Shown here in pieces: positions 1,877-41,904 of a stretch of DNA of 42,128 nt. This DNA is from a candidate division WWE3 bacterium. GTDB taxonomy: Bacteria > Patescibacteriota > WWE3 > UBA101185 > UBA10185. The DNA lies in contig JAAZNL010000025.1 of NCBI GenBank assembly GCA_012798315.1, forward strand, positions 1 to 42,128, given 5' to 3'. Position numbers and translations under genes: made by a program. Within the stretch, counting starts at the first letter, position 1. Each line of letters starts with the position of its first letter. The notes beneath the pieces were generated by a model. That model did not search any database, was not told the origin of the DNA, and saw nothing but the letters and a program-made list of their open reading frames with translations.

Positions 1877-2416
1877 CTAAAGATCGAAATTAAAATAAAT
1901 ATCCTGTATATCGTCGTGTGAATCAAGTTCATCTATTAACTTGAGTAGTGTCTGCTTAATGTCATCATTGGGAATTTCCATTTCGAACGAGGGATTTTCA
2001 GGATCTGAACTAAAAATGTATGCAGTACTTCCAGCGCCTCCCAAACTCCCCCCAAACTTGCTGAAAATTGTACGAATCTCAGCTACTGTTCTGTTCTTAT
2101 TATCTGTTATACCTTTTAAATAAAATGCCTCGCCATTAGGTCCGAACCCTTCATATATTACCTCGTGATATTCTACCCCATCGCCGCCGGCACCTGTGCC
2201 TTTTTTGATGGCTTTATCAATGTTTTCCTTTGGCATACGGGCTTCGCGGGCCTTTTCAAGGGCTAAACGCAAAGTTGCATTTGAATCGGGATCTCCCCCA
2301 CCCTGTTTAGCTGCTATGGTAATTAGTCTGCTCAATTTGGAAAAAGCCTGACTTTTCTTAGCGTCATTTACGGCTTTATCCCGCTTTATATTTGCCCATT
2401 TTGAATGTCCCGACAT
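1877..2416 (-). CDS. yebC: YebC/PmpR-family regulator, short form
   Basis: MSGHSKWANIKRDKAVNDAKK signature and C-terminal LIDELDSHDDIQDIYFNFDL; 179 aa. Confidence 0.93.
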   Translation of the reverse strand: MSGHSKWANIKRDKAVNDAKKSQAFSKLSRLITIAAKQGGGDPDSNATLRLALEKAREARMPKENIDKAIKKGTGAGGDGVEYHEVIYEGFGPNGEAFYLKGITDNKNRTVAEIRTIFSKFGGSLGGAGSTAYIFSSDPENPSFEMEIPNDDIKQTLLKLIDELDSHDDIQDIYFNFDL

Positions 2417-2482
2417 ACCTGATATCTTACCATTTTTGGGCTTTAGTTGACAAAAATATATTTTTTTGGTTAGCTCTTACTC

Positions 2483-3169
2483 ATGCAACTTAACATAACC
2501 CAATTAGCTAAGAAGGCTGTTTCCGCTGCACTAAAGTTAGAATGGCAAGTCGCGATTAAGGTAAACCAGGAAATTCTGGAAAAAGATCCTGATAATTTGG
2601 AGGCTAAGCTAAGACTTGGGAGAGCATATATATACACAAAAGAGCCAAACAAGGCTAAAAAGATGTTTAAGGAAGTCTTAAACGTTGACCCTATTAACCA
2701 GGTTGCCCTAAAAAACCTGAACTTACTTAAGGAAGATAATTTAGTACTTGCATCAGAATCCAACGTAAAAACAGACTCACTAATAAAGGAACCCGGTACT
2801 TCGGTTGAGGCAGATCTGGTAATAACTGCCAGAGGCATTAAGGCAGAAAGTCTAACCCCCGGCGAGCAGTTTAAAACCAAATTAAAAAGAAATTCCCTCG
2901 AAATTATAAGTACTTCCGGTAAAAACGAAACTGTATTAGGCGAACTAAATAACTCTGACATATCCTCCAGATTAAATGGTCTCGAAAAACAAGGCGGAAG
3001 ATTTGTTGTAAGTTACATTAAAGGTAGAGATAAAAATATTACATTACTCATAAAAACTTCTGTTCCGGTTTTTAAATCAGATAAACAGGACGTACGACCT
3101 TATATTAAAAAAGGATCACTTGATGAACCTGACATGGAAAATGAAGAGATTTTGGAACTCGGCGAATAG
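2483..3169 (+). CDS. TPR-repeat containing protein
   Basis: 228 aa; N-terminal TPR-like helices (NQEILEKDPDNLEAKLRLGRAYIYTKEPNKAKKMFKEVLNVDPINQVALKNL). TTGACA lies upstream at about 2448. Confidence 0.75.
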   Translation: MQLNITQLAKKAVSAALKLEWQVAIKVNQEILEKDPDNLEAKLRLGRAYIYTKEPNKAKKMFKEVLNVDPINQVALKNLNLLKEDNLVLASESNVKTDSLIKEPGTSVEADLVITARGIKAESLTPGEQFKTKLKRNSLEIISTSGKNETVLGELNNSDISSRLNGLEKQGGRFVVSYIKGRDKNITLLIKTSVPVFKSDKQDVRPYIKKGSLDEPDMENEEILELGE

Positions 3170-3180
3170 TTTAAAGGTTT

Positions 3181-3966
3181 TTATCTTAAATCATCATCAT
3201 CTAAAGAAGGATTCTGCGGCTGGGAATTGTTCCCGCCATTAAGAGATATTTCTGTTACAGCATCCCCGGAATTAGCGGTTAAATCCAACTTTCCAGTATT
3301 TGATTTTGAATTAGAAATTATCGGTTTTGGCGTGGCAACTGTCGGTTTTGGATTTGGTTTGGGAGCATTTGCAACTGGTGTTGGTGTAGAAATTTGTGTT
3401 TTTGATGAATACGTTTGTTTGGGCTGTTTTACCGGCGCAGAAGAATCTTTATGCTCAGTTAATCTTGGTTTAGCCAATCGGTCTAAAGTAGCGTATGGGG
3501 CATTAAGGTTCGCTGCAGGTATAAAAACAATTACCTCATCGTTCATCTGGCCTTGGTTGAAATCTATCGCAACATCGGAAACCCTATAGGATCCGGTATC
3601 CGTCAAAACCACCCATTTACCTTCTTTTTTAGAAAGTACTCCTTCCGTCTTCTTACGTTCTACCTTTTGAATTTGCTTAAAAACAGTGGCACCGTTATCC
3701 TCGATCATTTTTATCGTATCGCCATAAACTAAACGGGATTTAGCGGCATAATTAGCCGGAACATCATATTTATTTCCATTGGAATCCGTCATGTGAACGC
3801 CATCGAAAGTTCCTATTATACCTTCTATATTCTTGTATACATCGCGCTTAAGCTCTTTACCCAATGTATCCAGTATTTCCTTAATCTTATCCAGATTACG
3901 GTAGTTCTCCTCGAGAATTTTTTGTATATTCTCTACTCGTTTGTTAAATATTTCCGACTCGTTCAT
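3181..3966 (-). CDS. Conserved hypothetical protein with N-terminal coiled coil and Pro/Thr/Lys-rich C-terminal tail
   Basis: 261-aa ORF; 4-nt overlap with the upstream ATPase gene suggests translational coupling. Confidence 0.7.
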   Translation of the reverse strand: MNESEIFNKRVENIQKILEENYRNLDKIKEILDTLGKELKRDVYKNIEGIIGTFDGVHMTDSNGNKYDVPANYAAKSRLVYGDTIKMIEDNGATVFKQIQKVERKKTEGVLSKKEGKWVVLTDTGSYRVSDVAIDFNQGQMNDEVIVFIPAANLNAPYATLDRLAKPRLTEHKDSSAPVKQPKQTYSSKTQISTPTPVANAPKPNPKPTVATPKPIISNSKSNTGKLDLTANSGDAVTEISLNGGNNSQPQNPSLDDDDLR

Positions 3967-6506
3967 TTAGCTTCCTCCTTGTTAAAATTTGTTGTTTGAG
4001 CTTTTTTAGCCCGCATATCCTGCGCTATGGCTGCTCCTTTATCGAACTGTGTCTCCACCCATTTATTAATTTTGGATTCGACATATCCACGGTCAACACC
4101 ATAGGTCTCTCGGCTGTATTGTATCACTTTTTCCTTATTCGGCGACTTTGGTACTAGGAAATTCGGGTCTTCCCACGGTACTAAGATTCGGGCCGAAAAC
4201 GGATGTGAAGTCATACCATCTATCATTAGTTTTATATAAATATAAAACCTTTCAAGAGAAATTATATCTTCAGAATTAAAATACGGAGCAAATTCGCCTT
4301 CCAGCACTTTGGCATCAGGGGCACCTAAAGAAAATGTAGCAATAGTACCAACATTTCCGAAAACAGCTTTGAGAAGTGTTTCGGGCAGTTGAGCAGTAAA
4401 TTGGTGAGTCAGATACAATCCAAGTTTATATTTTCTGGATTCGGATAAGATTTCCTCAAAGCTGCCTGTAGCAAAGTTTTGAAACTCATCAACATACAGA
4501 TAGAACGGACGTCGTTTTTCGTACGGGATGTTAGCTCTCTGCAAGGCGAAAAATTGTATTCTCGAAACTAAAAGCGCGCCAAGTAAGTTTGCGTTATCGG
4601 CACCTATCTTACCTTTTGATAAATTCATTAACAAAATTTTGCCATCATTCATTGCGCCCCAAATATCCAGCGTGGAGTATCTCTGACCCAAAATATTTCT
4701 TATTGTGGTAGAAGCTAAGAACCTATTTACTTTATTTTGTATAGGTGCGATTGCGTCAGTGACAAGCTTTTGATTACCTTTCATTTCTTTAAATTCCGTT
4801 TCCCAAAATTTGTGAACCAACGGATCTTTGACCTGATGCAAAATATATTTTTGATAATTCGGATCTTCCATTAGTCGCGTAATACCAAGCATAGTTGTAC
4901 CAGGGACGTCAAGTAAAGTTAAAATTGCATAATTAAGCAGGTATTCAAGTCGCGGCCCCCAGGAATAATCAAAGTGTTGTTTAATAGCCGCAACGAGACC
5001 GGAGGCCATTAAATTCTTTTGTGATGGGTCACTCATTTCCAGCAAATTTAATCCCATAGGTCTTTCGGTGTCAGAAGGATCAAAATAAATTACATCTTTT
5101 ATTCTATGATCGGGAATTCGTTCCAAAACTTTTTCTATAGTTTCACCGTGAGGGTCTAAAACACCGACTCCCGCCCCGTTAGCAATGTCCTGGCTAATCA
5201 TAGATTCAAGAAGAGTCGATTTACCTGTACCGGACTTCCCTATCAAATACATGTGGCGCAGTCGGTCATCGCCATTAGCCAAACCGAACATCATTTTATT
5301 ACTTCTATAAGTTGTAGTACCTATATAATTGCAATCTGATACAGGCAGGTTGGCTGGCGGCTCTGATTTTCGGGAATATGTCCAGGATATATTTGGGGTA
5401 TCGATGTTTGACATGGGATAGTGATAAATCGTGGCTATTTCTTCCGTGTTCATTATTATTGCCTTTTCCGAGTCGAAAAACCTCTCCTTAAAGACATTCA
5501 ACTCCCGGATATTGCCGGAAACAGTATCCGCTTTAAATCCGTTTAAACTGGAAGACGTAAACTGTTTGAGTGCCGCTAAAATGGACCGCATATGAGTATC
5601 TGCCCTATCTTTATTTTCAGCTAAGGCAACTATTCTGATGACAACCTCGAAACCCATTCGGGATAGCTTGTTTTCTATTGCCTTCATTTCCAAATCCTGT
5701 GTAGGTGTGAGTTTTGGAGGCAAAGGTGTTTTATTGTCCGGACGTCTTGTGTCAACCTGGCTGGGTTTGTAAGTAAAAAAACCTGTTACAATTCCTGCGG
5801 CAACTTCAGCAGCTTCATTTGATACCAATTTAAGAGCCCCGGATATGGGGTTTACGTTACCACTACTAGCGGAACCGTCCCTGACCGATTTTACATATTC
5901 CGCTCCCGCTTTTTGCCAAGTATCAGCCAAAGGTTTGATAAGCATTTGTATCCACAATTCCTCGCTTTGTGTTACACCGGTAAGTGCTGAAGTTATACTT
6001 GAGAGAGGATCTATTTCAAAATCCCTAAAACTTTTTACCGGATAAAAATCCGGTTTGGTAAACGATACGTGTGAAACCTCGTAATACATTCCCTCACGTT
6101 TTTTCTGAGAAACATAGTCAGGTACTGCCCTTATTTGAGCTGATGGGTATTGAGCATATATTTGGCTTTCAACAAATTTTAAAATATGAGGGGGAACAAC
6201 TACGAAAAATTTTATACCGGTGTCGCCCGATGCGGCCATTTCAAAAGAAAAATGTTCTTGCGCTCTGGGATCATCCTTCAACAGACCGTGAATAGAGGCA
6301 AACATGTTTTCTGCAGATAATGATGAAAATTGTAAGTCTTTGGGCGATTCGTCGTTTTTGCTTAATTGGACCTCTAAAACCTCGAAGCCTTTTAATTCGG
6401 TCTGCGACACAGGAAGATCTTCCGATATGTTACGGAGACGAAGGTACATTAGGAATAGGAATATCAAAAAAAGAACTAAGACTATTAAAAAGTAGCTAAG
6501 AAACAT
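3963..6506 (-). CDS. Type IV secretion system DNA-binding domain / HerA-TraD-like ATPase with N-terminal TM segment
   Basis: N-terminal TM; Walker A GKSGTGKSTLL; VGVLDPHGE; Walker B-like FYLYVDEFQNF. Confidence 0.88.
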   Translation of the reverse strand: MFLSYFLIVLVLFLIFLFLMYLRLRNISEDLPVSQTELKGFEVLEVQLSKNDESPKDLQFSSLSAENMFASIHGLLKDDPRAQEHFSFEMAASGDTGIKFFVVVPPHILKFVESQIYAQYPSAQIRAVPDYVSQKKREGMYYEVSHVSFTKPDFYPVKSFRDFEIDPLSSITSALTGVTQSEELWIQMLIKPLADTWQKAGAEYVKSVRDGSASSGNVNPISGALKLVSNEAAEVAAGIVTGFFTYKPSQVDTRRPDNKTPLPPKLTPTQDLEMKAIENKLSRMGFEVVIRIVALAENKDRADTHMRSILAALKQFTSSSLNGFKADTVSGNIRELNVFKERFFDSEKAIIMNTEEIATIYHYPMSNIDTPNISWTYSRKSEPPANLPVSDCNYIGTTTYRSNKMMFGLANGDDRLRHMYLIGKSGTGKSTLLESMISQDIANGAGVGVLDPHGETIEKVLERIPDHRIKDVIYFDPSDTERPMGLNLLEMSDPSQKNLMASGLVAAIKQHFDYSWGPRLEYLLNYAILTLLDVPGTTMLGITRLMEDPNYQKYILHQVKDPLVHKFWETEFKEMKGNQKLVTDAIAPIQNKVNRFLASTTIRNILGQRYSTLDIWGAMNDGKILLMNLSKGKIGADNANLLGALLVSRIQFFALQRANIPYEKRRPFYLYVDEFQNFATGSFEEILSESRKYKLGLYLTHQFTAQLPETLLKAVFGNVGTIATFSLGAPDAKVLEGEFAPYFNSEDIISLERFYIYIKLMIDGMTSHPFSARILVPWEDPNFLVPKSPNKEKVIQYSRETYGVDRGYVESKINKWVETQFDKGAAIAQDMRAKKAQTTNFNKEEAK

Positions 6507-6521
6507 CTATAGACACACTTT

Positions 6522-6546
6522 CCCCCGCCCTTATTTGGGGCGGGGG
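6522..6546. other. Very GC-rich perfect hairpin in the intergenic region upstream of the ATPase
   Basis: CCCCCGCCC (6522-6530) - TTATTTG - GGGCGGGGG (6538-6546); no adjacent T-tract. Confidence 0.75.
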
Positions 6547-6576
6547 TAGAAAGGAGAGAGTACTAGAGCTATTCTA

Positions 6577-7650
6577 TTACAAGGTTTCAGCTAAGTCAAA
6601 TCCCAAAACGACAACAATATCTGCCCTATCGATTTCAGTATCTCTAAAGAATTCCCGGGCCTTTGACTTGGTCAATACGTTTTCAATACCAAAAATTGAG
6701 GCATATTTTCGGGTGCTTATGGAATCCTGCAGATCTGTAATAAGCACACTTTGTTTAATATCCTCATCGGAATTATTAACCGCTACCACTCTGCCCCCAT
6801 TGTTAGCGACTACGCGGGCGCCGAATGCGGCGAAACCGGCTTTGCCTGCTGCGTTCAAAATAGCCACAGAATACCCTTCTCTGGAAATCGGTGACAATGA
6901 CATAAGTTCGCGAACCTCCTGATCTATTACTTCCGTGTCCATAATATAGTTATTTAAATAAGGGTTATCTATCAACCTATCTGAAGGCAAAGTACGAATA
7001 AAAGAGGCTATTTTTAAAAACTCCTTAACTGAAAAATTTGACCGCAAATGGGTCGACATATTACTAATAAATTCTTTATCTATTAAATTAGATAACTCAC
7101 CAGTTCCCCAAAATTTGTCGGTGTGTTCGGCAGATTTATAATCAACTACAACATATCGCTCCGCCTTTAGTCCGAAAATAGGTAGCAAACTGGTTTCAAG
7201 TGTATTAATTCCGCTTTCCAATGTATCGGTCTCTTCGCTGTCATTTAGCTCGCTTACTAAAAATATGTTTGATAGCTTCTCAAGACCCAAGCGGCCCGGC
7301 ATATCTATTTCGTAATCTAGGGGAATTTCATACGTAAAAACACGCTCTCCCTCAATATCAAAAATTTTAAATTGGAGTTTTTGTATTTTTATGGGTGTAT
7401 CTGATAAATTCTCGGCTATTACGTATAAAACCGTGGGATAGGTATTTTCATCAAATGTAACTTCGCCGGGTGTAAGAGCGGATGCCAGATTGCGGTCTAT
7501 GAGCTTATAAACAGAATACCCGGATAAAATTAAAAAAGCGCCAAAAGTTAGTGCCAACACATACAAAACGCGCTTTATACGCTTCTTAGTATAATTCTTC
7601 TTCGTTTTGAGCTTAACAGCTCCTTTTTTGCGGGCAGCTTTGACGGGCAT
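6577..7650 (-). CDS. Membrane-anchored protein with LytR C-terminal-like (LytR_C) domain
   Basis: Basic N-terminus, single TM segment, C-terminal EGYSVAILNAAGKAGFAAFGARVVANNGGRV...DIVVVLGFD. Confidence 0.7.
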   Translation of the reverse strand: MPVKAARKKGAVKLKTKKNYTKKRIKRVLYVLALTFGAFLILSGYSVYKLIDRNLASALTPGEVTFDENTYPTVLYVIAENLSDTPIKIQKLQFKIFDIEGERVFTYEIPLDYEIDMPGRLGLEKLSNIFLVSELNDSEETDTLESGINTLETSLLPIFGLKAERYVVVDYKSAEHTDKFWGTGELSNLIDKEFISNMSTHLRSNFSVKEFLKIASFIRTLPSDRLIDNPYLNNYIMDTEVIDQEVRELMSLSPISREGYSVAILNAAGKAGFAAFGARVVANNGGRVVAVNNSDEDIKQSVLITDLQDSISTRKYASIFGIENVLTKSKAREFFRDTEIDRADIVVVLGFDLAETL

Positions 7651-7676
7651 GTCTGTTTATTATAATAGCAGAAATA

Positions 7677-10774: not shown

Positions 10775-10852
10775 ACGCACACCCAGGGTATTTTAGCATG
10801 AATACGCCCAATGACGTAACCCCCAAAGCTTATAGCGCTGATAAGGAACTTT

Positions 10853-12185: not shown

Positions 12186-12836
12186 TTAGTGACTTGGCTC
12201 AAGTACGAATATTTCTGTCTCTAAAGGTATGTCATTCTTACCTGATATTTTCAGCTTATCCAGTTTTTTTACATTATTTTCAACACCCATTTCATCCAAA
12301 AACTTGTCCAGACTATCTAAACCTTCCACTCCGGTAAGATCCGTAGTTTTGTAGTGCATTGGTATCACTATTCCGGGTTCTATGGAAGAAATTACTTTGG
12401 CGGCCAATTCGGCATCTATCGTAAATTTGCCCCCGACCGGAACCATCAAAATGTCTACCGTATCAATTTTTTCCAAAGTGGATTGTTCTAACTCATGACC
12501 TAAATCGCCCAAATGTAAAATTCTTACACCTTCGAGTTCGACTAAAAAAATAGTGTTAGGACCACTCTCAGCTCCGTCTTTTGCATCATGTTTAGTAGGA
12601 TATCCATTTATAAAAACACCCTTGGTTTCGTATTCACCGGGGGTGTCGATAAACAGCCTATAACCTGTTACACCTGATACATTATTATGATCAAAATGCT
12701 TGTGTGAAACTAACAAAATATCCGCATCCAATTTTGGAAGTTTATACCCTACTTTGGAATCGTAAGGATCAATAACGATCGTCGATTCTTTTCCTTTGAT
12801 TTTAAAGCATGAATGGCCTATGTATGTAATTTCCAT
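12186..12836 (-). CDS. MBL-fold (beta-lactamase superfamily) metal-dependent hydrolase
   Basis: MEITYIGHSCFKIKG, VSHKHFDHNN, LHLGDLGH, PMHYKT. Confidence 0.88.
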   Translation of the reverse strand: MEITYIGHSCFKIKGKESTIVIDPYDSKVGYKLPKLDADILLVSHKHFDHNNVSGVTGYRLFIDTPGEYETKGVFINGYPTKHDAKDGAESGPNTIFLVELEGVRILHLGDLGHELEQSTLEKIDTVDILMVPVGGKFTIDAELAAKVISSIEPGIVIPMHYKTTDLTGVEGLDSLDKFLDEMGVENNVKKLDKLKISGKNDIPLETEIFVLEPSH

Positions 12837-12896
12837 AAAAGTATATTAACACATTTTTCCGTGTTCAAATTCAAATTTGTAAAGTAAAATAAGTTA

Positions 12897-13950: not shown

Positions 13951-14292
13951 ATGAAGAAAAATATACACCCAAAAGTATACAACGAGGCCACGGTTACCTG
14001 TGTTTGTGGTAACCAATTTACTACAATTTCGACCCAGCCGTCACTGGCAGTGGAAGTATGCAGTAACTGTCACCCATTATTTACAGGACAACAGAAGTTT
14101 GTAGATACAGAGGGAAGAATCGACAAATTCAATAAAAAAATCAAACAAATGGAAGGCAAAGTGCAGGAACACAAAGCGAAAGTTGAATCCAAAGCTAAAA
14201 AACAGCAATCAGCAACAAATCAAAAAGCTCCTTCTCTTAGGGAACTAATGAAGCAAGTAAAAGAAGAAACCCCTGAAAAAACACAAGAGTAG
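13951..14292 (+). CDS. rpmE: 50S ribosomal protein L31 with extended C-terminus
   Basis: [28 protein letters not shown]...[27 protein letters not shown]; Zn-type Cys residues; start is ATG at 13951. Confidence 0.95.
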
Positions 14293-14301
14293 AATATAAG
14301 T

Positions 14302-16445: not shown

Positions 16446-16499
16446 ACAACCTTAATACAAATCAAATAATTTTTTCTTTCGGCAACGTGTAGGTGAAAA

Positions 16500-18722: not shown

Positions 18723-19730
18723 TTATTTAATATCTCCTCCTGCCGAACGAATAAAAGAACTGTATTGTCTGTACGCTGAGGCAAAATCTGTCTTACCTGT
18801 ACGGGTGTCAAAAATTAGGCCTGATTTTCCTCCCGACACTATTCTTTCCACTTGAGGGTTTCCCGCCGGTTTGAGCATAATTTTTGTTCTTTCTTCTTTT
18901 GGGAGAGGAAGTACAAATATTTTGTCTTTCTCTAAATCAATTATCTGGCTTGTTCCAATCTGAGAAGCTATCAGACACTCTATACCGCTTGGAATCGAAA
19001 TTAAGGTCGCAAGTTTTTCGGGGTGAACGGTAATACCCGGATCTTTCCCTAAGTAAATCCTCAGAAGGTTTGTAAGAATAGTGCTATCATTTGAATCCAC
19101 AAAAATGTCGTATGCGCCGGTGCCCTGTAAGAGTTGAAGTATTAACATGGTGTTTACGTCCTCAATACCATGTAAAGTATTAAAACGACAACCTAAAAAT
19201 ACGATAGGTTTTTCAGCGGGAACTTTAAAATTTTGAACAGTTTGTAAAAGCTTGGAATCCATTTCCACGCGTGATACTAAGTCCGAGACCACAACCTGAG
19301 GATATAACGACAAATTTGCAGCAAAGTCCTCTTCAACCGGATCCTGTGTCTCCCCCGCCGGATACTGTAATGGTTTACTGCTAAAAATCTGGTCCTTTGT
19401 GGCCACAGCGTAGTTATTTATCATTATCGGGTAATACTGTTCCGTACGAAGCAATAGTTCGTACATAGAAATGTACATTTTTAAACCAAGATCTATTTTC
19501 GGGGGCTCTAAAAATCCGGATAAAATAACATCACAATCTGACAGTTTTAGGTCAACGTCTTTACACATTTGATCAAAAAGTGCGCGATAAAAGGAAGTTT
19601 CAGTGGTAAAAGCCGAAAACAGCTCAGGTGAATACACATATGGGTAATTCCAAAAGGTATATTCCTCTGAAGATTTGTATATTAATCCCGTAACATCATG
19701 GGCACCAATGTAGGCAGCTAAAACAGGCAT
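18723..19730 (-). CDS. Conserved hypothetical; C-terminus weakly resembles MutL/GlmL (glutamate mutase L) family
   Basis: C-terminal KIFVLPLPKEERTKIMLKPAGNPQVERIVSGGKSGLIFDTRTGK; ATG at 19730 sits 6 nt downstream of TGT-TATTAT. Confidence 0.6.
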   Translation of the reverse strand: MPVLAAYIGAHDVTGLIYKSSEEYTFWNYPYVYSPELFSAFTTETSFYRALFDQMCKDVDLKLSDCDVILSGFLEPPKIDLGLKMYISMYELLLRTEQYYPIMINNYAVATKDQIFSSKPLQYPAGETQDPVEEDFAANLSLYPQVVVSDLVSRVEMDSKLLQTVQNFKVPAEKPIVFLGCRFNTLHGIEDVNTMLILQLLQGTGAYDIFVDSNDSTILTNLLRIYLGKDPGITVHPEKLATLISIPSGIECLIASQIGTSQIIDLEKDKIFVLPLPKEERTKIMLKPAGNPQVERIVSGGKSGLIFDTRTGKTDFASAYRQYSSFIRSAGGDIK

Positions 19731-19790
19731 GCGTAAATAATAACAGAGATACGCGCATGGATAAAGCAATCATTTTGTCTATGTAGTAGT

Positions 19791-20061: not shown

Positions 20062-20526
20062 TTATTTAGTTTCTTTTGGTGTATCTAAATCAAAATCCAA
20101 ATCACCGAAATCCATGTTGTCGGAACCACCTTCACCAAAACCGGTGTCCTCGTCGCCTATTATATCATCATCGTCCACAGAACCATCTTGTTTAATCTTG
20201 GATAGTATTATCATGTCATCGATTACGATTTCGGTTTTATACTTTTTAGAACCTTGAGGATCCTGCCAAGTTCTTGTTTGTAAACGACCTTCAACATACA
20301 CTTTAGTACCTTTTTTTAATAACTGGCCACAAATTTCAGCGAGTTTGTTCCAAGCCACAACGTTGTGAAAATCAGCTGCCTGTTTACGTTCACCGCTTGT
20401 TACCCATTCTCTGTTGGTAGCTATAACAAAACTTGCTACAGCATTACCCTGTGGAGTGTATCTCATTTCCGGATCACGGGTTAAGTTGCCAATTAACATT
20501 ACTTTGTTCAGATTTCTTGTTGCCAT
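20062..20526 (-). CDS. ssb: Single-stranded DNA-binding protein
   Basis: LNKVMLIGNLTRDPEMRYTPQGNAVASFVIATNREW; acidic C-terminus; SD AAGGAGAG upstream. Confidence 0.95.
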   Translation of the reverse strand: MATRNLNKVMLIGNLTRDPEMRYTPQGNAVASFVIATNREWVTSGERKQAADFHNVVAWNKLAEICGQLLKKGTKVYVEGRLQTRTWQDPQGSKKYKTEIVIDDMIILSKIKQDGSVDDDDIIGDEDTGFGEGGSDNMDFGDLDFDLDTPKETK

Positions 20527-21003: not shown

Positions 21004-22128
21004 TCACACACTAAAGTTGAACTCAACCACGTCTCCATCACGCATTATGTAGGTCTTTCCCTCTAGCCGTAATAGACCTTTATCCCTTGCCAATTTCAGA
21101 CTCCCCAAAGAAGCCAAATCCTCGTAGGCCACAATCTCGGCTGAAATGAATCCACGTTGAAAATCCGTATGGATAACGCCGGCAGCTTCGGGAGCCGATG
21201 AACCTTTTTTAACGGTCCATGCCCGTACTTCCTTAGGCCCCATGGTCAAAAATACCTGCAACCCAAGAATATCAAAACCTTTACGGATTACCTGATTAAG
21301 GCCGGACTCCCTTAATCCCAAATCCGACATAAAAGCATCTCTATCCGCCGGATCATCCATAGAGGCTATCTCTGACTCTATTTTTGCTGAAATCTTTATC
21401 CCGTTATAACGATCTATAACATCAGAATGAATAGATTTTATATCCGCTCCGGCTTCGGACTCAGAAACATTAAAAACATAAATCAAGGGTTTAAATGTTA
21501 AAAGATTATATTCCTTTAATAAATCCTTCTGTTTAGTACTTAGATTTAAACTGTTTGCCAACTTACCCTCCCCCAAGGCTTGCCTGACAGTAAGGAGTAA
21601 ATCGTATCTCTCTATACCCTCTGCAGTCTTATCGGATTTTAGCTCACGTTCGCCTTTTTCAAGTTTTTTATCTATAACCTGAATATCCGCTAAAATAAGT
21701 TCGGTATTTATTATTTCTATATCTGACGCAGGATCCGTGGCTCCTGCTCTAACCACATTGTCATCGTCAAAGGCTCGAACGACCTGGACAAGGGCGTCTA
21801 CCTCCCGAATATGACTCAAAAACGCGTTACCCAGGCCTTCACCTGACGAAGCTCCTTTTACCAAACCGGCAATATCATAAAATTTCACAACCGCAGGAAT
21901 AATCTGCTCCGGTAATTCCCTATCCCCTTGTCTTTGACCGTAATCAACTCTAACTATTTCTGCTAATCTATTTAAACGTTCGTCAGGTACATCTACAATT
22001 CCGATGTTAGGCTCTATTGTTGCAAAAGGATAATTAGCCGCCAAAGCAGCCTGTCTTTTAAGCAACGCGTTAAATAAAGTGGATTTACCTACATTCGGAA
22101 GACCCACAATTCCAAGGGATAAACTCAT
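21004..22128 (-). CDS. ychF: OBG-family GTPase/ATPase YchF
   Basis: MSLSLGIVGLPNVGKSTLFNALLKRQAALAANYPFATIEPNIG; TGS-like C-terminus. TGC-TACAAT ends 7 nt before this ATG. Confidence 0.96.
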   Translation of the reverse strand: MSLSLGIVGLPNVGKSTLFNALLKRQAALAANYPFATIEPNIGIVDVPDERLNRLAEIVRVDYGQRQGDRELPEQIIPAVVKFYDIAGLVKGASSGEGLGNAFLSHIREVDALVQVVRAFDDDNVVRAGATDPASDIEIINTELILADIQVIDKKLEKGERELKSDKTAEGIERYDLLLTVRQALGEGKLANSLNLSTKQKDLLKEYNLLTFKPLIYVFNVSESEAGADIKSIHSDVIDRYNGIKISAKIESEIASMDDPADRDAFMSDLGLRESGLNQVIRKGFDILGLQVFLTMGPKEVRAWTVKKGSSAPEAAGVIHTDFQRGFISAEIVAYEDLASLGSLKLARDKGLLRLEGKTYIMRDGDVVEFNFSV

Positions 22129-22176
22129 AACTTGCATTGTAGCAATATAGTGAGGAAGTGAAAATGGCGGGCAAGT

Positions 22177-22335: not shown

Positions 22336-23487
22336 CTACTTCCCTACCCTTTCTAATATATATCCGAGTTCGCGATAGATGTGAGATTTGGCCTCATTAT
22401 AATCTGGATTGTCCTTATTGTCCATTTCGCTCAGTTGTTCAACTGAGTAGTTGGTGACTAAATCTCTGGGAAGTCTGATAACAATTCCCATTTCGTTATT
22501 TTTGGCTACCGCATACAAAAAATTAGCTTCTATGTCATATAAATCTAAATTAGAAGGTCTTTCGTAATCCCCTTCGTAAATTTTGGGCAAATTACCTTCA
22601 GTTACAACCCGACAGCTACCTTGGCCGTTCGAAATCTCCGCTTTCTTAACGTCAAAAAGAGCAAGTTCCTTTGAAAATTTGCCATCATGTATTGTCAGTA
22701 CAAAATCTGCGCCTTCGTTAACATCACGGAAAGCAGGCGGCTTTTGAAAAACCATGTCATAACCAACATCCGGAAAGTCATAACCTGAAACAATTCTTCC
22801 TGCAACAATCTCAGCCTTTATACCGTCAACCAACGATTCAACATGGTCAAATAAGCCTAATCTTTCCGTATGGGCTGCCGATACAAGTTTCATAGCCATA
22901 TCAAGAGCTTTGGGGTCAGATAATCCCAAGTTAACAGCACGCCCGATAGCTCCGGACTTAATAATATTGTCCATATTTAGTTTTCCTGCATTGGCTTCTG
23001 CCAAGACACAGATATCACAAGCGGTGACTAATATATCATTAACCTGATTAAATGTTCCTTCATCGGTAAATTCCTGCATAACACTTAAAAACCTTTTAAC
23101 ACCTAAGGCGCGCAGCCGAACGTCGGCATAATAAACTTCCGATTTACTGTTGCTGCCCACTAGCCTCTTTTCCAAAGACTTATTCATTGCATCCCAATAA
23201 CCATTAACCCACTCCATTGCAGTTTCATAACCGGAATTTTTTTCGGGTTTAGATAAAGTGGTCTCCTCTAACACTAATTTCTCAAGCACCTCATCAACCG
23301 AAATGCCTATTTTTTCTAACTCTTCTGTCGTAAGTCTTTCTAAATCATTTATGTTGTATGTAACCTCGGGGGGCTTAATATATCTTTCGGGGGATATGGG
23401 TGTAAATCTAGCCTTGCCTGATTCAGCAAGTCTTGAAAAATTATCGGTTAAAGTCGAATGTGGTAGAGCTTCATAACTTGCAGCCAT
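22336..23487 (-). CDS. Conserved hypothetical cytoplasmic protein
   Basis: 383-aa ORF; ATG preceded by TGC-TAACAT-taggtg. Confidence 0.65.
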   Translation of the reverse strand: MAASYEALPHSTLTDNFSRLAESGKARFTPISPERYIKPPEVTYNINDLERLTTEELEKIGISVDEVLEKLVLEETTLSKPEKNSGYETAMEWVNGYWDAMNKSLEKRLVGSNSKSEVYYADVRLRALGVKRFLSVMQEFTDEGTFNQVNDILVTACDICVLAEANAGKLNMDNIIKSGAIGRAVNLGLSDPKALDMAMKLVSAAHTERLGLFDHVESLVDGIKAEIVAGRIVSGYDFPDVGYDMVFQKPPAFRDVNEGADFVLTIHDGKFSKELALFDVKKAEISNGQGSCRVVTEGNLPKIYEGDYERPSNLDLYDIEANFLYAVAKNNEMGIVIRLPRDLVTNYSVEQLSEMDNKDNPDYNEAKSHIYRELGYILERVGK

Positions 23488-23555
23488 CACCTAATGTTAG
23501 CATATATTTAAACAGGCAATTTACGCCATCATTAAAATCTCTTATCATATTATCA

Positions 23556-25511
23556 ATGCCCGTTTTTAAGTTTGTTTTCAAAACAATATTCGGTTTTGGA
23601 TTATTAGTACTTGGTTCATATTCTACTTATGCTGCAGATATTACTGCCCCTGTAACTACACATGTAATGGATCCTTCTTCTCCTGACGGAGATAATGGTT
23701 GGTTCGTTACACCAATTAACTTTACTCTTACCGCAACAGATCTGGATAGCGGCGTCAGCCAAATAAATTACAGAATAGACGGCGGCACATGGCAGACTTT
23801 TTCTTTTGAAAATACTTTAAATTTGGCGCCTAATGCATCATTTGAAAACTATTCCGCGGGTTCATCCATATCTACAACTGATTGGGAAAAAACTACCAGT
23901 GATCCAGGTACATCTTACTCAAGAGATAACTCAACCACGCCTGCCGGCTTTGAGACTACTTCAATACGTGTCGGTTCTACATCGCCTGGCTGGCACGGGA
24001 TTAACCACGCCGCAACTTATGCGGCTGCTACACCTTTGGCTAACATGACCACAGGAATATGGGTAAAAACAGATAGCTTAACATCGACCGCTTATATCAA
24101 GGTTTATTCCGTTTCGTTAGACACGAATAATCTACCCGTTTACACTTACCTGGGTCAAAGTTCGGGAATATCAGGAACCAATGATTGGGCCAAACTTACA
24201 TACAATTTTGTGGTAACCGACCCTTTTTCTGTGGGTATTTACATAGATATCGGTTTTGACGGTTCCGGTACGGCCTGGTTTGATGCCGCCGAAATTACAT
24301 CGTCGCTTCAGACGCGCAATGTCGAATTTACCGTAGGTTCTGACAGCAGCAACCATACGGTGGAGTACTACTCTGTAGACCGCTCGGGAAACGCTGAAAC
24401 CTATAACTGCAGTACTGATGATAACTGTGTAACTTTTAAATTAGACCAAACACCTCCCGGCAATTGGCACGATTCCGGTGCTTTTAGAGGTTTACTTGGT
24501 TCTGATCATGCGTTGTATGTATATACAGTTGTTGAAGATGCTACCTCAGGCATATCCACTTTTACAGACAAATATATGTATCACACTGACGTAGAACCGG
24601 GTTTCGGCAGATTTTCAAACATTACAACCTGTTCTTCTACCTGGCAAAGCGACCAATGGGTGGTGCTAATATCGCCTCCTTTTATACCGGGTGTGCATTC
24701 AGCATATTTGTTAACGCCGAAAACCGAGTTTTGTAATAATGACTGGAAAACCTGTAAAACTGTTAGGTTTTTGGCAGAAGATTTAGCCGGTAATTCTGCC
24801 ACAAAAGACTATTGTATAAACGGTCCGTGGGTAAAATTCCGCGGCGGTGGGCTGGTCCGAAGTAACTCAGACATTAGTATGATATCTGAACCGGAGGAAG
24901 ATAACACGGATGGGGTGATAGAAGCAGAAGGCGATCTAGTTAACTTTTTCACATCAACAAAGGACTGGAAAATGATGCCCGCAGCAAGGCCTACCGAATA
25001 CGACTATGCCGGATTTAGAAACATTGTTAGAACCTCACCCACTACCAGAACTTCATTAACCACTACATCGGGTGTCTACCAAATTAATACTGACTTTGAA
25101 ATAAGTAACACGACATTACCAAATAATTTTGATTCCGCATCATTTAACCAAATTTATTTTATTAATGGAGACTTACTTATTTCAAAGAATGTCAAAGTGG
25201 CAACGGCTTCTACAGCTTTGTTTATCGTTAATGGAAAAGTCGAAATAGCCAAATCCGTCGACGAAATCGGGATAGCTGTTATGGCCGACGGCGATTTTTA
25301 TACCGCGTATGACATTGCAGAAGGCGAAGGCGCACCTACTCTAATTTTAGGCGGGATATTTTCTGCAAATAAATTTTGGTTCCAAAGAACTTTGCAAGGT
25401 ACTAACAACACAAAATATCCGTCAGAAGATTTTACATACCAGCCAAAGTATATTACTGCAATGAGAACCTATTTAGGCACAAACTCAATTCTTTGGAAAT
25501 CAGTGGAATAA
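23556..25511 (+). CDS. Secreted surface protein with Ig/OmpL47-like domain and CBM-like insertion
   Basis: Signal peptide MPVFKFVFKTIFGFGLLVLGSYSTYAADITAP; LDSGVSQINYRIDGGTWQTFSF and HTVEYYSVDRSGNAE flank NASFENYSAG...GTAWFDAAEI. Confidence 0.8.
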   Translation: MPVFKFVFKTIFGFGLLVLGSYSTYAADITAPVTTHVMDPSSPDGDNGWFVTPINFTLTATDLDSGVSQINYRIDGGTWQTFSFENTLNLAPNASFENYSAGSSISTTDWEKTTSDPGTSYSRDNSTTPAGFETTSIRVGSTSPGWHGINHAATYAAATPLANMTTGIWVKTDSLTSTAYIKVYSVSLDTNNLPVYTYLGQSSGISGTNDWAKLTYNFVVTDPFSVGIYIDIGFDGSGTAWFDAAEITSSLQTRNVEFTVGSDSSNHTVEYYSVDRSGNAETYNCSTDDNCVTFKLDQTPPGNWHDSGAFRGLLGSDHALYVYTVVEDATSGISTFTDKYMYHTDVEPGFGRFSNITTCSSTWQSDQWVVLISPPFIPGVHSAYLLTPKTEFCNNDWKTCKTVRFLAEDLAGNSATKDYCINGPWVKFRGGGLVRSNSDISMISEPEEDNTDGVIEAEGDLVNFFTSTKDWKMMPAARPTEYDYAGFRNIVRTSPTTRTSLTTTSGVYQINTDFEISNTTLPNNFDSASFNQIYFINGDLLISKNVKVATASTALFIVNGKVEIAKSVDEIGIAVMADGDFYTAYDIAEGEGAPTLILGGIFSANKFWFQRTLQGTNNTKYPSEDFTYQPKYITAMRTYLGTNSILWKSVE

Positions 25512-26919: not shown

Positions 26920-26939
26920 GAGTGTATTTTATCACACCG

Positions 26940-27554: not shown

Positions 27555-27583
27555 TACGTAATTCTATTAAAAATAACAAAAAT

Positions 27584-32782: not shown

Positions 32783-32807
32783 GTATGAATAATATCACAG
32801 CTTACTA

Positions 32808-33263
32808 TTACTCTCTTACGTCGAATCGCACAAAAGATCTAATTTCAATTTTCTCGCCTACTTTGGCTGTCAATTCATTTATCAAATCCTTTATTTTCTT
32901 GGAAGGATCTCTAATATATTCAGCCTCTACCAATTCGTTAACGTCGGTGTATTCGGATGTACATACTTGCATTGCTATCTCATGTGCTACTTTTTTAAAA
33001 TCGTCAGTTTTTGCGACAAAATCAGTTTCACAGGCCAGTAAAACCAGACTCCCGGCTTTTCCGCCCATATGAATATAACTTTCCACCAATCCGTCTTTTG
33101 TTACTCTGTCGGCTTTTTTAGCAGCTTTTGACTCTGCCTTTTTCATAAGCATCTCGTGAGCTTTTGTATAATCACCTTGCGCTTCTTCCAAAGCGTTTTT
33201 TACTTCTAAAACACCTGCGCCTGTTTCTTCTCTAAGTTTTTTTATAGATTCGATATCTTGCAT
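32808..33263 (-). CDS. tsf: Elongation factor Ts, short form
   Basis: IKKLREETGAGVLEVKNALEEAQGD, LVLLACETDFVAKTDDF; 151 aa; SD AGGAGA upstream. Confidence 0.95.
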   Translation of the reverse strand: MQDIESIKKLREETGAGVLEVKNALEEAQGDYTKAHEMLMKKAESKAAKKADRVTKDGLVESYIHMGGKAGSLVLLACETDFVAKTDDFKKVAHEIAMQVCTSEYTDVNELVEAEYIRDPSKKIKDLINELTAKVGEKIEIRSFVRFDVRE

Positions 33264-36606: not shown

Positions 36607-36647
36607 ACGTGTTTGAGTATAGCATGCGCATGCTTTCGGATTGCAAG

Positions 36648-36706
36648 AAAAAAAACCCCAACCTAAGTATGCTGATTTTGCTTGATTCAACACATTAGAT
36701 TGGGGT
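36648..36706 (-). terminator. Rho-independent terminator downstream of the 96-aa membrane ORF
   Basis: Minus strand ACCCCAATCTAA ... TTAGGTTGGGGT followed by TTTTTTT. Confidence 0.75.
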
Positions 36707-36743
36707 GCAGGAAGGTCTTAACCAATGGCGTTATAGTAAGGAG

Positions 36744-37034: not shown

Positions 37035-37135
37035 GGTAGTTACTCCTCTTTCGCATCTGAATAAGTATGTTTTAAACCTTCACGATAACTAAATCTTACT
37101 ATAGGTCTGTGTTCTTGTCAAACCACGCTTTTTAC

Positions 37136-39022
37136 TTATTTAAACCATAAGTCCATTAATTCGCGAGCTATAGGAGTGGCATCGTCGCTGCCTGCTCCAC
37201 CGCCTTCCAAAAACACGGTAAGTGCAATGGAAGCATCGTAGTTCGAACTATTGTAAGGACCAAAGACAGTCAACCACGCGTGTGTTTTATCGGTACCATC
37301 ACTGGCAGTATACTCAGAAGTTCCTGTTTTTGCTGCTAGCGTTGTGCCATTATGTTTTAGAGGAAAATCGAACAAAGGGTAAGCGGTACCGCCAGGGGCT
37401 GCGACTGCGGCCATACCTTCACGTACTAAATCATAGGATTTGGTGTCTGTGAGATCCTCCGCTATCAAATTCGCCTTGGGCAAATTTACGCCATCAATAC
37501 TCTCTACAATGCGCGGAACGTATAGCTTTCCACCGTTAGCAAAATAAGAGGTAACATTGTTAACCTGCAAGGGTGTGCTTAATGTGTCGCCTTGACCTAT
37601 GGCAGTGATATATGTATCACCAAGATACCAAGCCCTTGCGGTCCCATCAGGTATATTTCCGGGCAACTCACCCTTAATATCTATCCCCGTTAAATGGCCG
37701 TATCCAAACTTGTTTGCCCATGACGCCAACTTTTGAATCCCCAACCCATTTATATTACCGTGACCGCCGCCTACGGTATAAAAATATGTATCGTTACTAA
37801 CCTGCAACGCCCTAACCAAATTGACATCTCCGTGTCCCCCAGCTTTCCAGTTTCTAAAAATGTAGGATCCTACCTGAATATAACCAGGATCAAAGACAGA
37901 AGTCCGTTCGGTAACAACACCTTCCATAAGTGCCGCGGAAGCTGTAACCATTTTAAAAGTGGAACCCGGGGGATATACAGCTGATACTGCGCGGTTAAAA
38001 AAAGGATAGTTACCGGCTTTAAGCAGCGCATCCATTTCAGCGGCGGTCATTCCGTACGAAAGTTTGTTAGAATCAAAAGTCGGATAGCTTACCAAAGCTA
38101 TTACCCCGCCGGTTTGAGGATCCTGAGCTACAACGACACCTGCCGTGGCTTTGCCCTCCAACACTTTTTCTTTTATCAAATCGTAAGCTTTATTTTGTAA
38201 ATCCAAATTCAGATACGTGTGAATATTCTTACCCGGAAAAGCGTTTTGTTCCGCGATTACCTTGTAAGACTCCCCTGACGAATCTACCTGGATCACCCTT
38301 TCTCCGGGGATGCCCCGCAACCTATCATCGTACGACTCCTCTATTCCGGCCTTGCCGACATACCTGGGCTGTAAATTTGTCTCATCCAGGCCAACATAGC
38401 CCAAAACATGTGCAAAGGATTCGGGAAAACGGTAATCCCTTAACGGCTGAACGGATATTACAAGACCCGGAAAGGACGCCAGTTTGCTTTCAATCGGTAA
38501 AACTTCTTCTTTTGTAAGGCCTTTTTCAATTACAATTACCTGCTTGCGGTCTTTTAAATCTAAATATGCTTCAGGTAAGCTTTTATTCTGAATTTTTTCA
38601 ACTTCATATAAAGTGCTTTCGCATATATCTAGCTGCCGACAATACATTGTATTAAGCTCTATAGAAAACGCCGGTTTGTTTCGGACTAAAACCTCACCTT
38701 CTCTGGAATATATAACTCCCCTTTCAGCCTGTATCTGAGCGTATCGTGTGTTATTGGATTTAGACAAAGTTTCGTACTTTTCACCCTTTAACACCTGAAG
38801 GGTAAATGCGCGAGTTATAAAAATCAAAGATGTAATAACCACCAGACACACAAAAAACATTGCGTGCCACAATTTATAATTATGCGAAAGATTATAAGAG
38901 CTGAGTTTTCTTGGCAAATTGTTACTCAAATCGGGATAGCCAAACACTTCCTTAAAAGAGTCAATGTTTCTTCGGAAAATTCCGGGATTAAACTGATCTA
39001 TGTCAAAGGGTAATTTTTTCAT
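37136..39022 (-). CDS. mrdA: Penicillin-binding protein 2
   Basis: N-terminal TM, PPGSTFKM (SxxK), SND (SxN), AAKTGTSE (KTG). Confidence 0.95.
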   Translation of the reverse strand: MKKLPFDIDQFNPGIFRRNIDSFKEVFGYPDLSNNLPRKLSSYNLSHNYKLWHAMFFVCLVVITSLIFITRAFTLQVLKGEKYETLSKSNNTRYAQIQAERGVIYSREGEVLVRNKPAFSIELNTMYCRQLDICESTLYEVEKIQNKSLPEAYLDLKDRKQVIVIEKGLTKEEVLPIESKLASFPGLVISVQPLRDYRFPESFAHVLGYVGLDETNLQPRYVGKAGIEESYDDRLRGIPGERVIQVDSSGESYKVIAEQNAFPGKNIHTYLNLDLQNKAYDLIKEKVLEGKATAGVVVAQDPQTGGVIALVSYPTFDSNKLSYGMTAAEMDALLKAGNYPFFNRAVSAVYPPGSTFKMVTASAALMEGVVTERTSVFDPGYIQVGSYIFRNWKAGGHGDVNLVRALQVSNDTYFYTVGGGHGNINGLGIQKLASWANKFGYGHLTGIDIKGELPGNIPDGTARAWYLGDTYITAIGQGDTLSTPLQVNNVTSYFANGGKLYVPRIVESIDGVNLPKANLIAEDLTDTKSYDLVREGMAAVAAPGGTAYPLFDFPLKHNGTTLAAKTGTSEYTASDGTDKTHAWLTVFGPYNSSNYDASIALTVFLEGGGAGSDDATPIARELMDLWFK

Positions 39023-39031
39023 ATCTTAGTG

Positions 39032-39484
39032 CTAACTCCGGCTTGCGAGTATTTGCTTAAACACGAGTGAAGCCAAATATGAAATAAGTGCAGATACAAA
39101 AGCCAACACCAGCAAAAGTAAATCAACCGGACTACCCTTTGCAAGAATAACCAAAGAGTAAATATAAGCAACAATAGTTCCGACGACCAGATGAGGAATG
39201 ACGCCTCTAAATAAATAATTACGGACTAAGATTAACAAATATACACCTGCCGTCATTATCAACGAAGATAAACCCAGACGCGTTCCCAAAAGAACGTCCA
39301 AAATTACACCCCCGACAAACACACTTTTCAGTGCCGTAACGGGTGCATCTACAAGTAGCCAGGCAAAACCCAACGCTAAAACCCAGTTAATTAACGCCTG
39401 TTTACCAAACAATGTCGGAAAAAATGCTGTTTGGAGCAGCGCGAAAATTATATTAATAAAAATAAGTGTTAGTATTTTTTTCAT
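39032..39484 (-). CDS. mreD: Rod shape-determining protein MreD-like
   Basis: 150-aa multi-TM protein between mreC and mrdA; 4-nt overlap with mreC. Confidence 0.85.
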   Translation of the reverse strand: MKKILTLIFINIIFALLQTAFFPTLFGKQALINWVLALGFAWLLVDAPVTALKSVFVGGVILDVLLGTRLGLSSLIMTAGVYLLILVRNYLFRGVIPHLVVGTIVAYIYSLVILAKGSPVDLLLLVLAFVSALISYLASLVFKQILASRS

Positions 39485-40260
39485 TTTTTAATCAGTACGA
39501 AAACCCTATCGATTCTTTTTACATCTAAAGCGGTCTGAAGTGTTGCTGATTTAAGAGGCTGTGTAGCATCTTCAAAAACTTCTGAAACCTTGCCAATGTA
39601 CAACCCTGGTATATAAATACCATCCTTACCTGAAGTAATAATCATGTCGCCTGTTTTTAGACGTTCTGAGGGTAAAATTTTTTCCAATACAACCGAGGAT
39701 CCATGCTTTCCTAAAACAATACCCTCGGTTTTTCTTTCGCTATCAATGTTATATGCAGTTATGCTTGTGTAAGGTGATGTTATCAATTCGACTTCTGACT
39801 CGATGGGATAAACGTTTGTAACTTTTCCGATCAGATAATTACCTAGTATGACGTTATCACCTGTCTGAACACCTTGTCGTGAGCCTTTGTCTATAATCAC
39901 TGTCGCAGTGGTCAAATCGGTAGGATTACCGCGGACATTTGCAAGCAACAACGGCCGATCTTTTAAACTATCTAAGGATAACCCAAGCTGATTTCGCAAA
40001 AGTTGATTTTCTTCCTCCAAGCGTTTTAGTTCTACAACTCTGGATTCCAAAATCAAATTATCTTCTAGAAGTTTTATGTTTTCTCTTCGTACACTTCGTA
40101 AATTAGAATAAAACAAACTGAAATCTTTTATACCTAAAGCTGTATTTGTTAATCCATATTGTAGCGGCGAGAAAAAATAACCGGCAAATTTATAAACCGG
40201 TTTATGTATGCCGAACAAGCTAAGAAATAATAAAAAAAGGCTTGCCAAAATATATTTCAC
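39481..40260 (-). CDS. mreC: Rod shape-determining protein MreC
   Basis: N-terminal TM, coiled coil, NVRGNPTDLTTATVIIDKGSRQGVQTGDNVI. Confidence 0.94.
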   Translation of the reverse strand: MKYILASLFLLFLSLFGIHKPVYKFAGYFFSPLQYGLTNTALGIKDFSLFYSNLRSVRRENIKLLEDNLILESRVVELKRLEEENQLLRNQLGLSLDSLKDRPLLLANVRGNPTDLTTATVIIDKGSRQGVQTGDNVILGNYLIGKVTNVYPIESEVELITSPYTSITAYNIDSERKTEGIVLGKHGSSVVLEKILPSERLKTGDMIITSGKDGIYIPGLYIGKVSEVFEDATQPLKSATLQTALDVKRIDRVFVLIKK

Positions 40261-40276
40261 AAAAACATTTTAACAC

Positions 40277-41320
40277 TTAGCCTCCTATTCGGACTTTGTG
40301 TAAAAGATCTTCATTTTCAAGCGCCCTAGCGCATCCTCTTACAACACATGTTAAAGGTTCTTTCGCAACTTTAACCGGAACTTTTAACTCCTGAGTTAAC
40401 AGTTTCTCTATTCCTCGCAGTTGCGATGTACCACCTGCTAAAACAATGCCTTCTCGTACTATATCCGCCATCAGTTCGGCTGGGGTGTCTTCTATCGCAT
40501 CCTTTATTGCATTAATAATTTGCGTTATCGGGGGTTTTAAAGCCTCGCGTATTTCGGAAGGGGTGATTTCGATGGAACGTGGTAAACCGGTTTTCAGATC
40601 TCGCCCTCTAAACACAGATTTATACTGAGATTCTCCCTCTAAGTCTATAACGTTACCGATTGCGATCTTTACCTCCTCGGCGGTACGTTCACCTAAAAGC
40701 AAGTTATATTTGTTTTTCGCATAGTTTACAATTTCCTGATCCATCTCGTCTCCTGCTATACGAATAGACCTATTTACCACAACTCCGCCCAGGGAAATAA
40801 CGGCTATCTCGCTTGTACCGCCTCCCATATCTACTACCATTGTCCCTTTTGGTTCCTCTACCTTAAGATCGGCCCCTAATGCCGCCGCCATAGGTTCTTC
40901 TATTAGATAAACCTTTCGGGCGCCAGATGCCTCAGCAGCATCTATAACCGCTTTACGTTCAACAGGAGTAACTCCAGACGGCACCCCAATCACAATCCTA
41001 GGTTTAGGTATTTTTGGAAATTTTGTGGGAATCTCGTGCACCTGGCGAATAAAATAGGTAATCATTTTTTCTGCAGCGCTAAAATCAGAAATAACTCCAT
41101 TACGAAGGGGTCTAATTGCCAAAATATTGGAAGGAGTTCTTCCCAACATCCGTTTTGCTTCGGAGCCAACCGCCAAAACCTCTTTTGTTTTTTTGTGGAC
41201 TGCTACAACACTAGGTTCACGAACTAATATTCCCTTTCCCTTAACGTATACCAATACATTTGCCGTACCCAGATCCATCCCAATGTCGTACGTCAAAAAG
41301 TTCATTAGTTTTTTCAGCAT
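40277..41320 (-). CDS. mreB: Rod shape-determining protein MreB
   Basis: DIGMDLGTANVLVYVKGKGI, MVVDMGGGTSEIAVIS, GIVLAGGTSQLRGIE. Confidence 0.97.
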   Translation of the reverse strand: MLKKLMNFLTYDIGMDLGTANVLVYVKGKGILVREPSVVAVHKKTKEVLAVGSEAKRMLGRTPSNILAIRPLRNGVISDFSAAEKMITYFIRQVHEIPTKFPKIPKPRIVIGVPSGVTPVERKAVIDAAEASGARKVYLIEEPMAAALGADLKVEEPKGTMVVDMGGGTSEIAVISLGGVVVNRSIRIAGDEMDQEIVNYAKNKYNLLLGERTAEEVKIAIGNVIDLEGESQYKSVFRGRDLKTGLPRSIEITPSEIREALKPPITQIINAIKDAIEDTPAELMADIVREGIVLAGGTSQLRGIEKLLTQELKVPVKVAKEPLTCVVRGCARALENEDLLHKVRIGG

Positions 41321-41355
41321 AACAAGGTGAGTTTAGCATACGAGAGTTGTTAAGG

Positions 41356-41361
41356 TATAAT
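41356..41361 (+). promoter_or_regulatory. -10 element TATAAT ending 6 nt upstream of the def start codon
   Basis: TATAAT-actcac-ATG. Confidence 0.6.
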
Positions 41362-41367
41362 ACTCAC

Positions 41368-41904
41368 ATGTCTGTTACGCCAATCGTAAAAGTACCTAGC
41401 AAGGTACTGACAAGTAAATGTGAAAAAGTCAAAAAAGGTGATCCTGAACTAAAACCGCTGGTGGAAAATCTCGTGGATACCCTTGATAACGCTCAAAACC
41501 CCCAGGGAGCCGGTTTAGCCGCCCCTCAGATAGGGGTGTTAAAGCGGGTCTTAATCGCCAGAAATTTTTATGAAGATCCGGGCAATACTAACTTAACAAA
41601 ATTTGAAAATGTAGTATTTATTAACCCTAAAATCGTAAGCCATTCCAAAGAAACTGATGTAGACTGGGAAGGCTGCTTAAGTATTCCTGATACTTACGGT
41701 AAGGTTCAAAGGTACAGTCAGGTTAAAGTTAGAACCGAAGACTTAGATGGGCAGGAGTTTACGGTAAAAGCATCAGGGTTTTTCGCAAGGACAATTCAGC
41801 ATGAAATTGACCATTTAGACGGCATATTATTTACCACCAAACTAATCGGGAATAAAGTTACCGAAGAGCAGTTGGATAATATAATAGCCGCAGAAGAGGA
41901 ATAA
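41368..41904 (+). CDS. def: Peptide deformylase
   Basis: GAGLAAPQIG, WEGCLSIPD, QHEIDHLDG; start trimmed to ATG at 41368. Confidence 0.96.
   Translation: MSVTPIVKVPSKVLTSKCEKVKKGDPELKPLVENLVDTLDNAQNPQGAGLAAPQIGVLKRVLIARNFYEDPGNTNLTKFENVVFINPKIVSHSKETDVDWEGCLSIPDTYGKVQRYSQVKVRTEDLDGQEFTVKASGFFARTIQHEIDHLDGILFTTKLIGNKVTEEQLDNIIAAEEE

Follow-up and report, generated by a model that had tools for sequence, protein, structure and literature searches.

The window studied here, a stretch of 42,128 nt that is contig C54 of a candidate division WWE3 genome, carries in front of many of its genes a -10-like hexamer that ends 6 or 7 nt before the start codon. Across the genome this hexamer is strongly enriched at a spacer of exactly 6 nt, it behaves as a promoter element, and it is nearly exclusive of Shine-Dalgarno (SD) sequences; the arrangement very probably reflects widespread leaderless or near-leaderless transcription, existing beside SD-led initiation at operon-internal genes. 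A preliminary description of the window had put forward this reading with its two initiation modes, and positional enrichment, the contrast with operon-internal genes and the promoters of the tRNA genes support it. In the scheme that we propose, the hexamer would be the -10, often TGn-extended, of housekeeping sigma-70 promoters. With a spacer of 6-7 nt, the transcript would open with the start codon itself, and with 8-12 nt it would begin a few bases earlier, so that about one third of the genes heading a transcription unit would have leaderless or near-leaderless mRNAs. The 70S ribosomes would presumably begin at the 5'-terminal AUG or GUG, and many operon-internal genes would rely on SD sequences or on A-rich start regions.

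The genome (0.9 Mb in 71 contigs, 98.6% complete, GC content of 36.5%) belongs to the Patescibacteria (Candidate Phyla Radiation, CPR), probably close to Beckwithbacteria and Dojkabacteria, as judged from its genome relatives and from a CysS tree, which represents one gene only. The genome-wide counts are based on 895,638 of the 899,492 bases, with some 800 genes, the remaining 4 kb or so being mainly one contig end. Gene starts were called by coding potential alone, with two versions of a model to which promoters and SD sequences were unknown. Genes with a divergent neighbour were classed as lead genes; those following a same-strand gene counted as lead genes when the gap exceeded 15 nt and as tight-operon genes when it did not. 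The spacer is the number of nucleotides between the end of the hexamer and the start codon.

Of the 511 lead genes, 99 (19.4%) have the sequence TANNNT at a spacer of exactly 6 nt. The position background was on the average 19.1 genes over spacers 12-59, with a maximum of 37 at any control spacer (binomial P ~5e-41), and dinucleotide shuffles gave 20.4 ± 4.4 genes (maximum 36). At the same spacer, the motif preceded 3.8% of the other ATGs of the same upstream regions and 6.8% of the tight-operon genes. The enrichment above AT-content expectation and the relative poverty of operon-internal genes, both put forward as checks in the preliminary description, are thus found genome-wide. That an AT-rich genome would simply provide TANNNT near starts often enough has a negligible probability: the enrichment is about fivefold and restricted to one spacer in the position, shuffle and non-start ATG controls, which already refutes it, and the peak was reproduced in relatives and by two-fold cross-validation, where the motif trained on half of the contigs recovered this peak in the remaining contigs. 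What speaks for chance is the raw count of TANNNT-N6-ATG over the whole genome, 589 against 646 for the reversed control; this count is uninformative because most matches lie away from gene starts. When a mixture was fitted by expectation-maximization (EM), the motif received a weight of 0.37 in lead genes, as against 0.08 in tight-operon ones; divergent genes had 0.41, and 0.55 was obtained for the same-strand genes located 16-40 nt behind their neighbour. The weight of 0.37 fell to 0-0.03 when the window of the fit was slid upstream and to 0.008 with the mirrored motif. Given the values of 0.37 and 0.08, the share of all genes with the motif is about one quarter.

The motif obtained by EM is an extended -10, TGnTAtAAT, preceded by a run of bases rich in T. 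The offset weights were 0.56, 0.17, 0.14 and 0.12 at 6, 7, 8 and 9 nt and almost nil at 4-5 nt, i.e. the left edge is sharp at 6 nt and a tail reaches 9-12 nt. The TGn extension was present in 36% of the spacer-6 sites versus 8% of the other TANNNT. In its strict form, TGnTAnAAT, the motif occurred 19 times at spacer 6 and once in spacers 0-5 together; beyond 13 nt its frequency was 0.26 per position, equal to that on the reverse strand. It follows from the strict-motif counts and the offset distribution that most of the recognisable protein-gene promoters have spacers of 6-12 nt. A weak preference for a -35 element may accompany them: a TTGACA-like sequence (at least 4/6 match) was found at spacer 17 from the -10 in 18 of 156 cases, for a background of about 7.

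The element is a promoter and not a ribosome signal, because it is also present upstream of tRNA and tmRNA genes, which do not undergo ordinary translation. With the matrix derived from protein starts, a likelihood ratio above 100 was obtained within 90 nt upstream for 33 of the 39 tRNA/tmRNA genes versus 8 when the reverse strand was scanned, and the distance to the gene was variable. The hexamer could instead be viewed as a translation-initiation signal, or as an A/T-rich start context like that of Bacteroidetes, with no promoter involved; its fixed distance from start codons and the A-richness of operon-internal starts go in that direction. Such a view is highly improbable: it accounts neither for the motif and its TGn extension in front of the tRNA/tmRNA genes nor for the extended -10 form with its sharp edge at 6 nt, and the hexamer is depleted in tight-operon genes, though these are translated. 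The genome encodes a single primary sigma factor (RpoD), closely similar to SigA and with Pfam regions 1.1, 1.2, 2, 3 and 4, as well as a second, smaller sigma factor. The segment of sigma-70 region 3.0 that reads TGn is represented in this RpoD by IRIPVHMVE, which aligns with SigA.

Where transcription starts relative to the promoter can be approached through the position of purines. The tRNA promoters show a purine peak at the seventh base after the hexamer, and 20 of the 24 protein genes with a spacer of 9 have a purine at this same place (P 0.002). Both observations are consistent with transcription starting 7 bases past the box, at the base that opens the start codon when the spacer is 6. 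The usual distance from a sigma-70 -10 to the start site is 6 nt. From the position of the -10 and that of the purine, we infer leaderless RNA 5' ends and, with them, the mode of ribosome entry. The promoters could be real and yet produce short leaders (1-6 nt) or use another start base, so that few mRNAs would be strictly leaderless. The clear tail at spacers 8-12 and the cysS gene, whose spacer is often 10 in relatives, would fit this; we consider it unlikely, since the dominant spacer of 6 is the usual -10-to-start distance and the position of the purine after the hexamer agrees with it. The base preceding the start codon shows a strong depletion of G (2-8%) and a preference for T (~50%), whatever the class of gene. 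A T or pyrimidine at -1 was considered as a signature of transcription start and rejected, being unspecific to the -10-led genes; as the bias exists in all classes, leaderless starts alone cannot explain it.

On the translation side, the two initiation modes of the preliminary description, promoter-proximal -10 versus SD, turned out to be nearly exclusive: among 508 lead genes, 153 have only the TA box, 72 only an SD, 3 have both and 280 neither. An SD is present in 2% of the -10-led genes versus 17.5% of the other lead genes and 28-29% of the tight-operon genes. Operon-internal genes have an A-rich -10..-1 region and make modest use of SD sequences. The start codons of the 156 -10-led genes are ATG (138), GTG (16) and TTG (2), TTG being rarer there than in tight-operon genes (21 of 271, P 0.003). 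This scarcity of TTG matches the rule in mycobacteria, where leaderless translation needs an RTG at +1 (PMC4633059). IF1, IF3, a four-domain S1 and S21 are all encoded, and the 3' end of the 16S rRNA, GGATCACCTCCTTTC on contig C62, has an intact anti-SD. With these components present, SD initiation is intact and both modes coexist.

The arrangement is conserved in relatives. Two genomes of the same family, taken at 200 kb each, have spacer-6 shares of 20.8% and 17.3%, and two out of three families of the same class show the peak (15.3% and 12.9%); the relatives with the same peak as this genome are G009, G010, G019 and G021. Intermediate values come from a genome of another class (9.6% at spacer 6) and from the pool of named CPR loci (6.7% at 6 nt and 8.1% at 7 nt, against 2.7%). 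No peak was seen in 582 lead genes of other phyla, used as non-CPR controls (3.4% versus 2.5%). As a side observation, among the 37 lead genes of the pooled Elusimicrobia 5 have the motif at spacer 6, and leaderless-type -10 boxes were noted in small numbers in L146 and L154 (Elusimicrobia), L158 and L215 (Saccharibacteria) and L176 (Giovannonibacteria).

At the level of single genes, the 25 family and class orthologs of cysS include 21 with a -10 within 6-12 nt of the start, and the 25 family orthologs of ychF include 18; four relatives have an SD in front of ychF instead. For frr, a -10 is found at 6-9 nt in 8 of 8 same-family loci, and an SD occupies that place in many other CPR families. 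The arrangement of cysS, frr and ychF is kept in sister genera though the rest of the upstream DNA differs. For four orthologous genes, the ratio of -10 to SD was 4:6 when the start is packed against the upstream gene and 58:12 elsewhere, the -10 being rarer in the packed configuration (P 0.007). Since orthologs such as ychF switch modes between genera, the evolution of the mode can be traced gene by gene. YchF is reported to regulate the translation of leaderless mRNAs, with inhibition in E. coli (PMC9031893); the ychF gene has a -10 located 7 nt before its own start.

Several observations weigh against widespread leaderless transcription, or restrict it. Between 13 and 300 nt upstream, the motif has 216 matches for 142 expected from a Markov model, a modest excess because of which some leadered promoters may exist farther upstream, although in a control with the reverse strand there was no clear excess. 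The -10-led genes have no extra pyrimidine preference at -1. Within the class, G018 (L249-L253), whose GC content is higher (0.48), has no peak (0 of 65 lead genes), which suggests that the trait was lost or gained inside the class. The agreement of states gene by gene is mixed: P is 0.03 with G010, and with G009 the agreement is not significant, there being few pairs. Finally, the 280 of 508 lead genes with neither signal limit the term 'widespread' used in the preliminary description, which holds for about one third of lead genes and one quarter of all genes, and not for all. Some of these 280 are probably operon-internal genes with larger gaps or genes with miscalled starts, and others may have weaker boxes. 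A more general proposal is that leaderless or near-leaderless (0-6 nt) mRNAs are the default for every promoter-driven protein gene here, leadered ones being rare, and that this is an old CPR trait with gains and losses in families; we regard it as possible, on the doubtful side.

Leaderless genes as such are of a known kind. Of the 953 bacterial genomes surveyed by Zheng et al. (2011, PMC3160421), 207 have leaderless genes with a TA-like box some 10 bp upstream, and in Actinobacteria and Deinococcus-Thermus such genes exceed 20% of the total (PMC3160421). The TA-led genes of these two groups resemble those described here in having a TA-like -10 about 10 bp upstream and no SD (PMC3160421), and our estimated share of about one quarter of all genes is comparable with that of Actinobacteria; the difference is one of phylum, of genome size (below 1 Mb here) and of GC content (about 37%). 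For low-GC genomes the same survey gives a TAtAAT box with a TG peak, as in this genome (PMC3160421). Patescibacteria are not named among its leaderless groups (PMC3160421). The leaderless transcripts of Mycobacterium are likewise similar, with the same -10 as leadered genes, an RTG at +1 and SD-led genes alongside; they were established by transcription start-site mapping, ribosome profiling and mass spectrometry, whereas ours are predicted from sequence (PMC4633059). The likeness to extended -10 sigma-70 promoters lies in TGnTATAAT, a full-domain RpoD and perhaps the weak -35 preference. Unlike ordinary promoters of this type, those found here are tied in position to the start codons of protein genes, and not to tRNA genes. 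With the non-SD, A-rich initiation of Bacteroidetes the genome shares A-rich operon-internal starts; it differs in that its lead genes use a promoter-proximal box. The searchable literature, outside which most subscription papers fall, gave on leaderless transcription in CPR an incidental remark about YchF and mentions in reference lists only, and no transcription start-site map of any Patescibacterium was found in it. As far as this literature goes, no earlier report of leaderless genes in Patescibacteria seems to exist; GeneMarkS-2 and similar gene finders may already treat CPR genomes in this way without comment.

Patescibacteria make up a very large share of bacterial diversity, and their rules of gene expression are almost all unmeasured. 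If the reading is correct, SD-based gene finders would make wrong calls of start codon, untranslated region and promoter for many genes, expression cassettes for the few tractable Patescibacteria should place the -10 6-7 nt before the ATG, and translation by a reduced ribosome would become open to study in a system that mixes leaderless and SD initiation.

In the window, all 14 promoter-like sites named in the preliminary description have their hexamers at the given distance from an in-frame start codon, and the two genes it cited for SD sequences, ssb and tsf, do possess them. The sites and genes are the following:

26926-26931, minus strand: -10 of cysS, TAAAAT with TGA extension, 6 nt before ATG (26919)
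32789-32794, minus strand: -10 of frr, TATTAT with TGA extension, 6 nt before ATG (32782)
19737-19742, minus strand: -10 of the open reading frame (ORF) at 19730, TATTAT with TGT extension, spacer 6; G010 ortholog also with a -10 at 6/7
23494-23499, minus strand: -10 of the ORF at 23487, TAACAT with TGC extension, spacer 6
27561-27566, minus strand: -10 of recR, TAGAAT, 6 nt before GTG (27554)
16452-16457, minus strand: htrA, TATTAA, weak and not TANNNT, 6 nt before ATG (16445)
41356-41361, plus strand: -10 of def, TATAAT, 6 nt before ATG (41368)
12885-12890, plus strand: -10 of the EamA-family transporter gene, TAAAAT, 6 nt before ATG (12897)
12843-12848, minus strand: -10 of the divergent ORF at 12836 (12186-12836, metallo-hydrolase-like), TAATAT with TGT extension, spacer 6 (TAATAT-acttttATG)
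14290-14295, plus strand: prfA, TAGAAT, doubtful, 6 nt before ATG (14302), overlapping the rpmE stop
22136-22141, minus strand: -10 of ychF (21004-22128), TACAAT with TGC extension, 7 nt before ATG (22128)
2424-2429, minus strand: -10 of yebC, TAAGAT, 7 nt before ATG (2416)
23543-23548, plus strand: -10 of the ORF at 23556, TATCAT, spacer 7; G010 ortholog also with a -10 at 6/7
36616-36621, minus strand: -10 of topA, TATACT with TGC extension, 9 nt before ATG (36606), predicted leader of about 3 nt
41330-41335, minus strand: -10 of mreB, TAAACT with TGC extension, 9 nt before ATG (41320), predicted leader of about 3 nt
10790-10795, minus strand: -10 of tRNA-Leu, TAAAAT with TGC extension, upstream of an untranslated gene
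20062-20526, minus strand: ssb, SD mode, AAGGAGAG before the start
32808-33263, minus strand: tsf, SD mode, AGGAGA before the start

Two of these sites call for reservations. The hexamer of htrA exists at 6 nt and is no TANNNT box. That of prfA is also in place and is doubtful: the gene begins 9 nt behind rpmE, a class for which about one third of the spacer-6 matches are expected by chance, and the -10 is found at the same place in 10 of 25 family orthologs, i.e. it is weakly conserved. The site of the ORF at 12836 was absent from the preliminary list; its G010 ortholog also has a -10 at 6/7. As for the starts, those given in the preliminary description for the ORFs at 19730, 23487 and 23556 and for cysS, frr, recR, htrA, EamA, prfA, yebC, topA and mreB are the gene finder's own picks, and the start of def at 41368 was picked by the 4th-order version of the coding-potential gene finder. 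For ychF the gene finder took 22137; the start at 22128 (MSLSLGIVG) proposed earlier is the one common to most relatives. The divergent genes mreB and def have 47 bp between their start codons (41321-41367) and one start-adjoining -10 each, the two promoters standing back to back.

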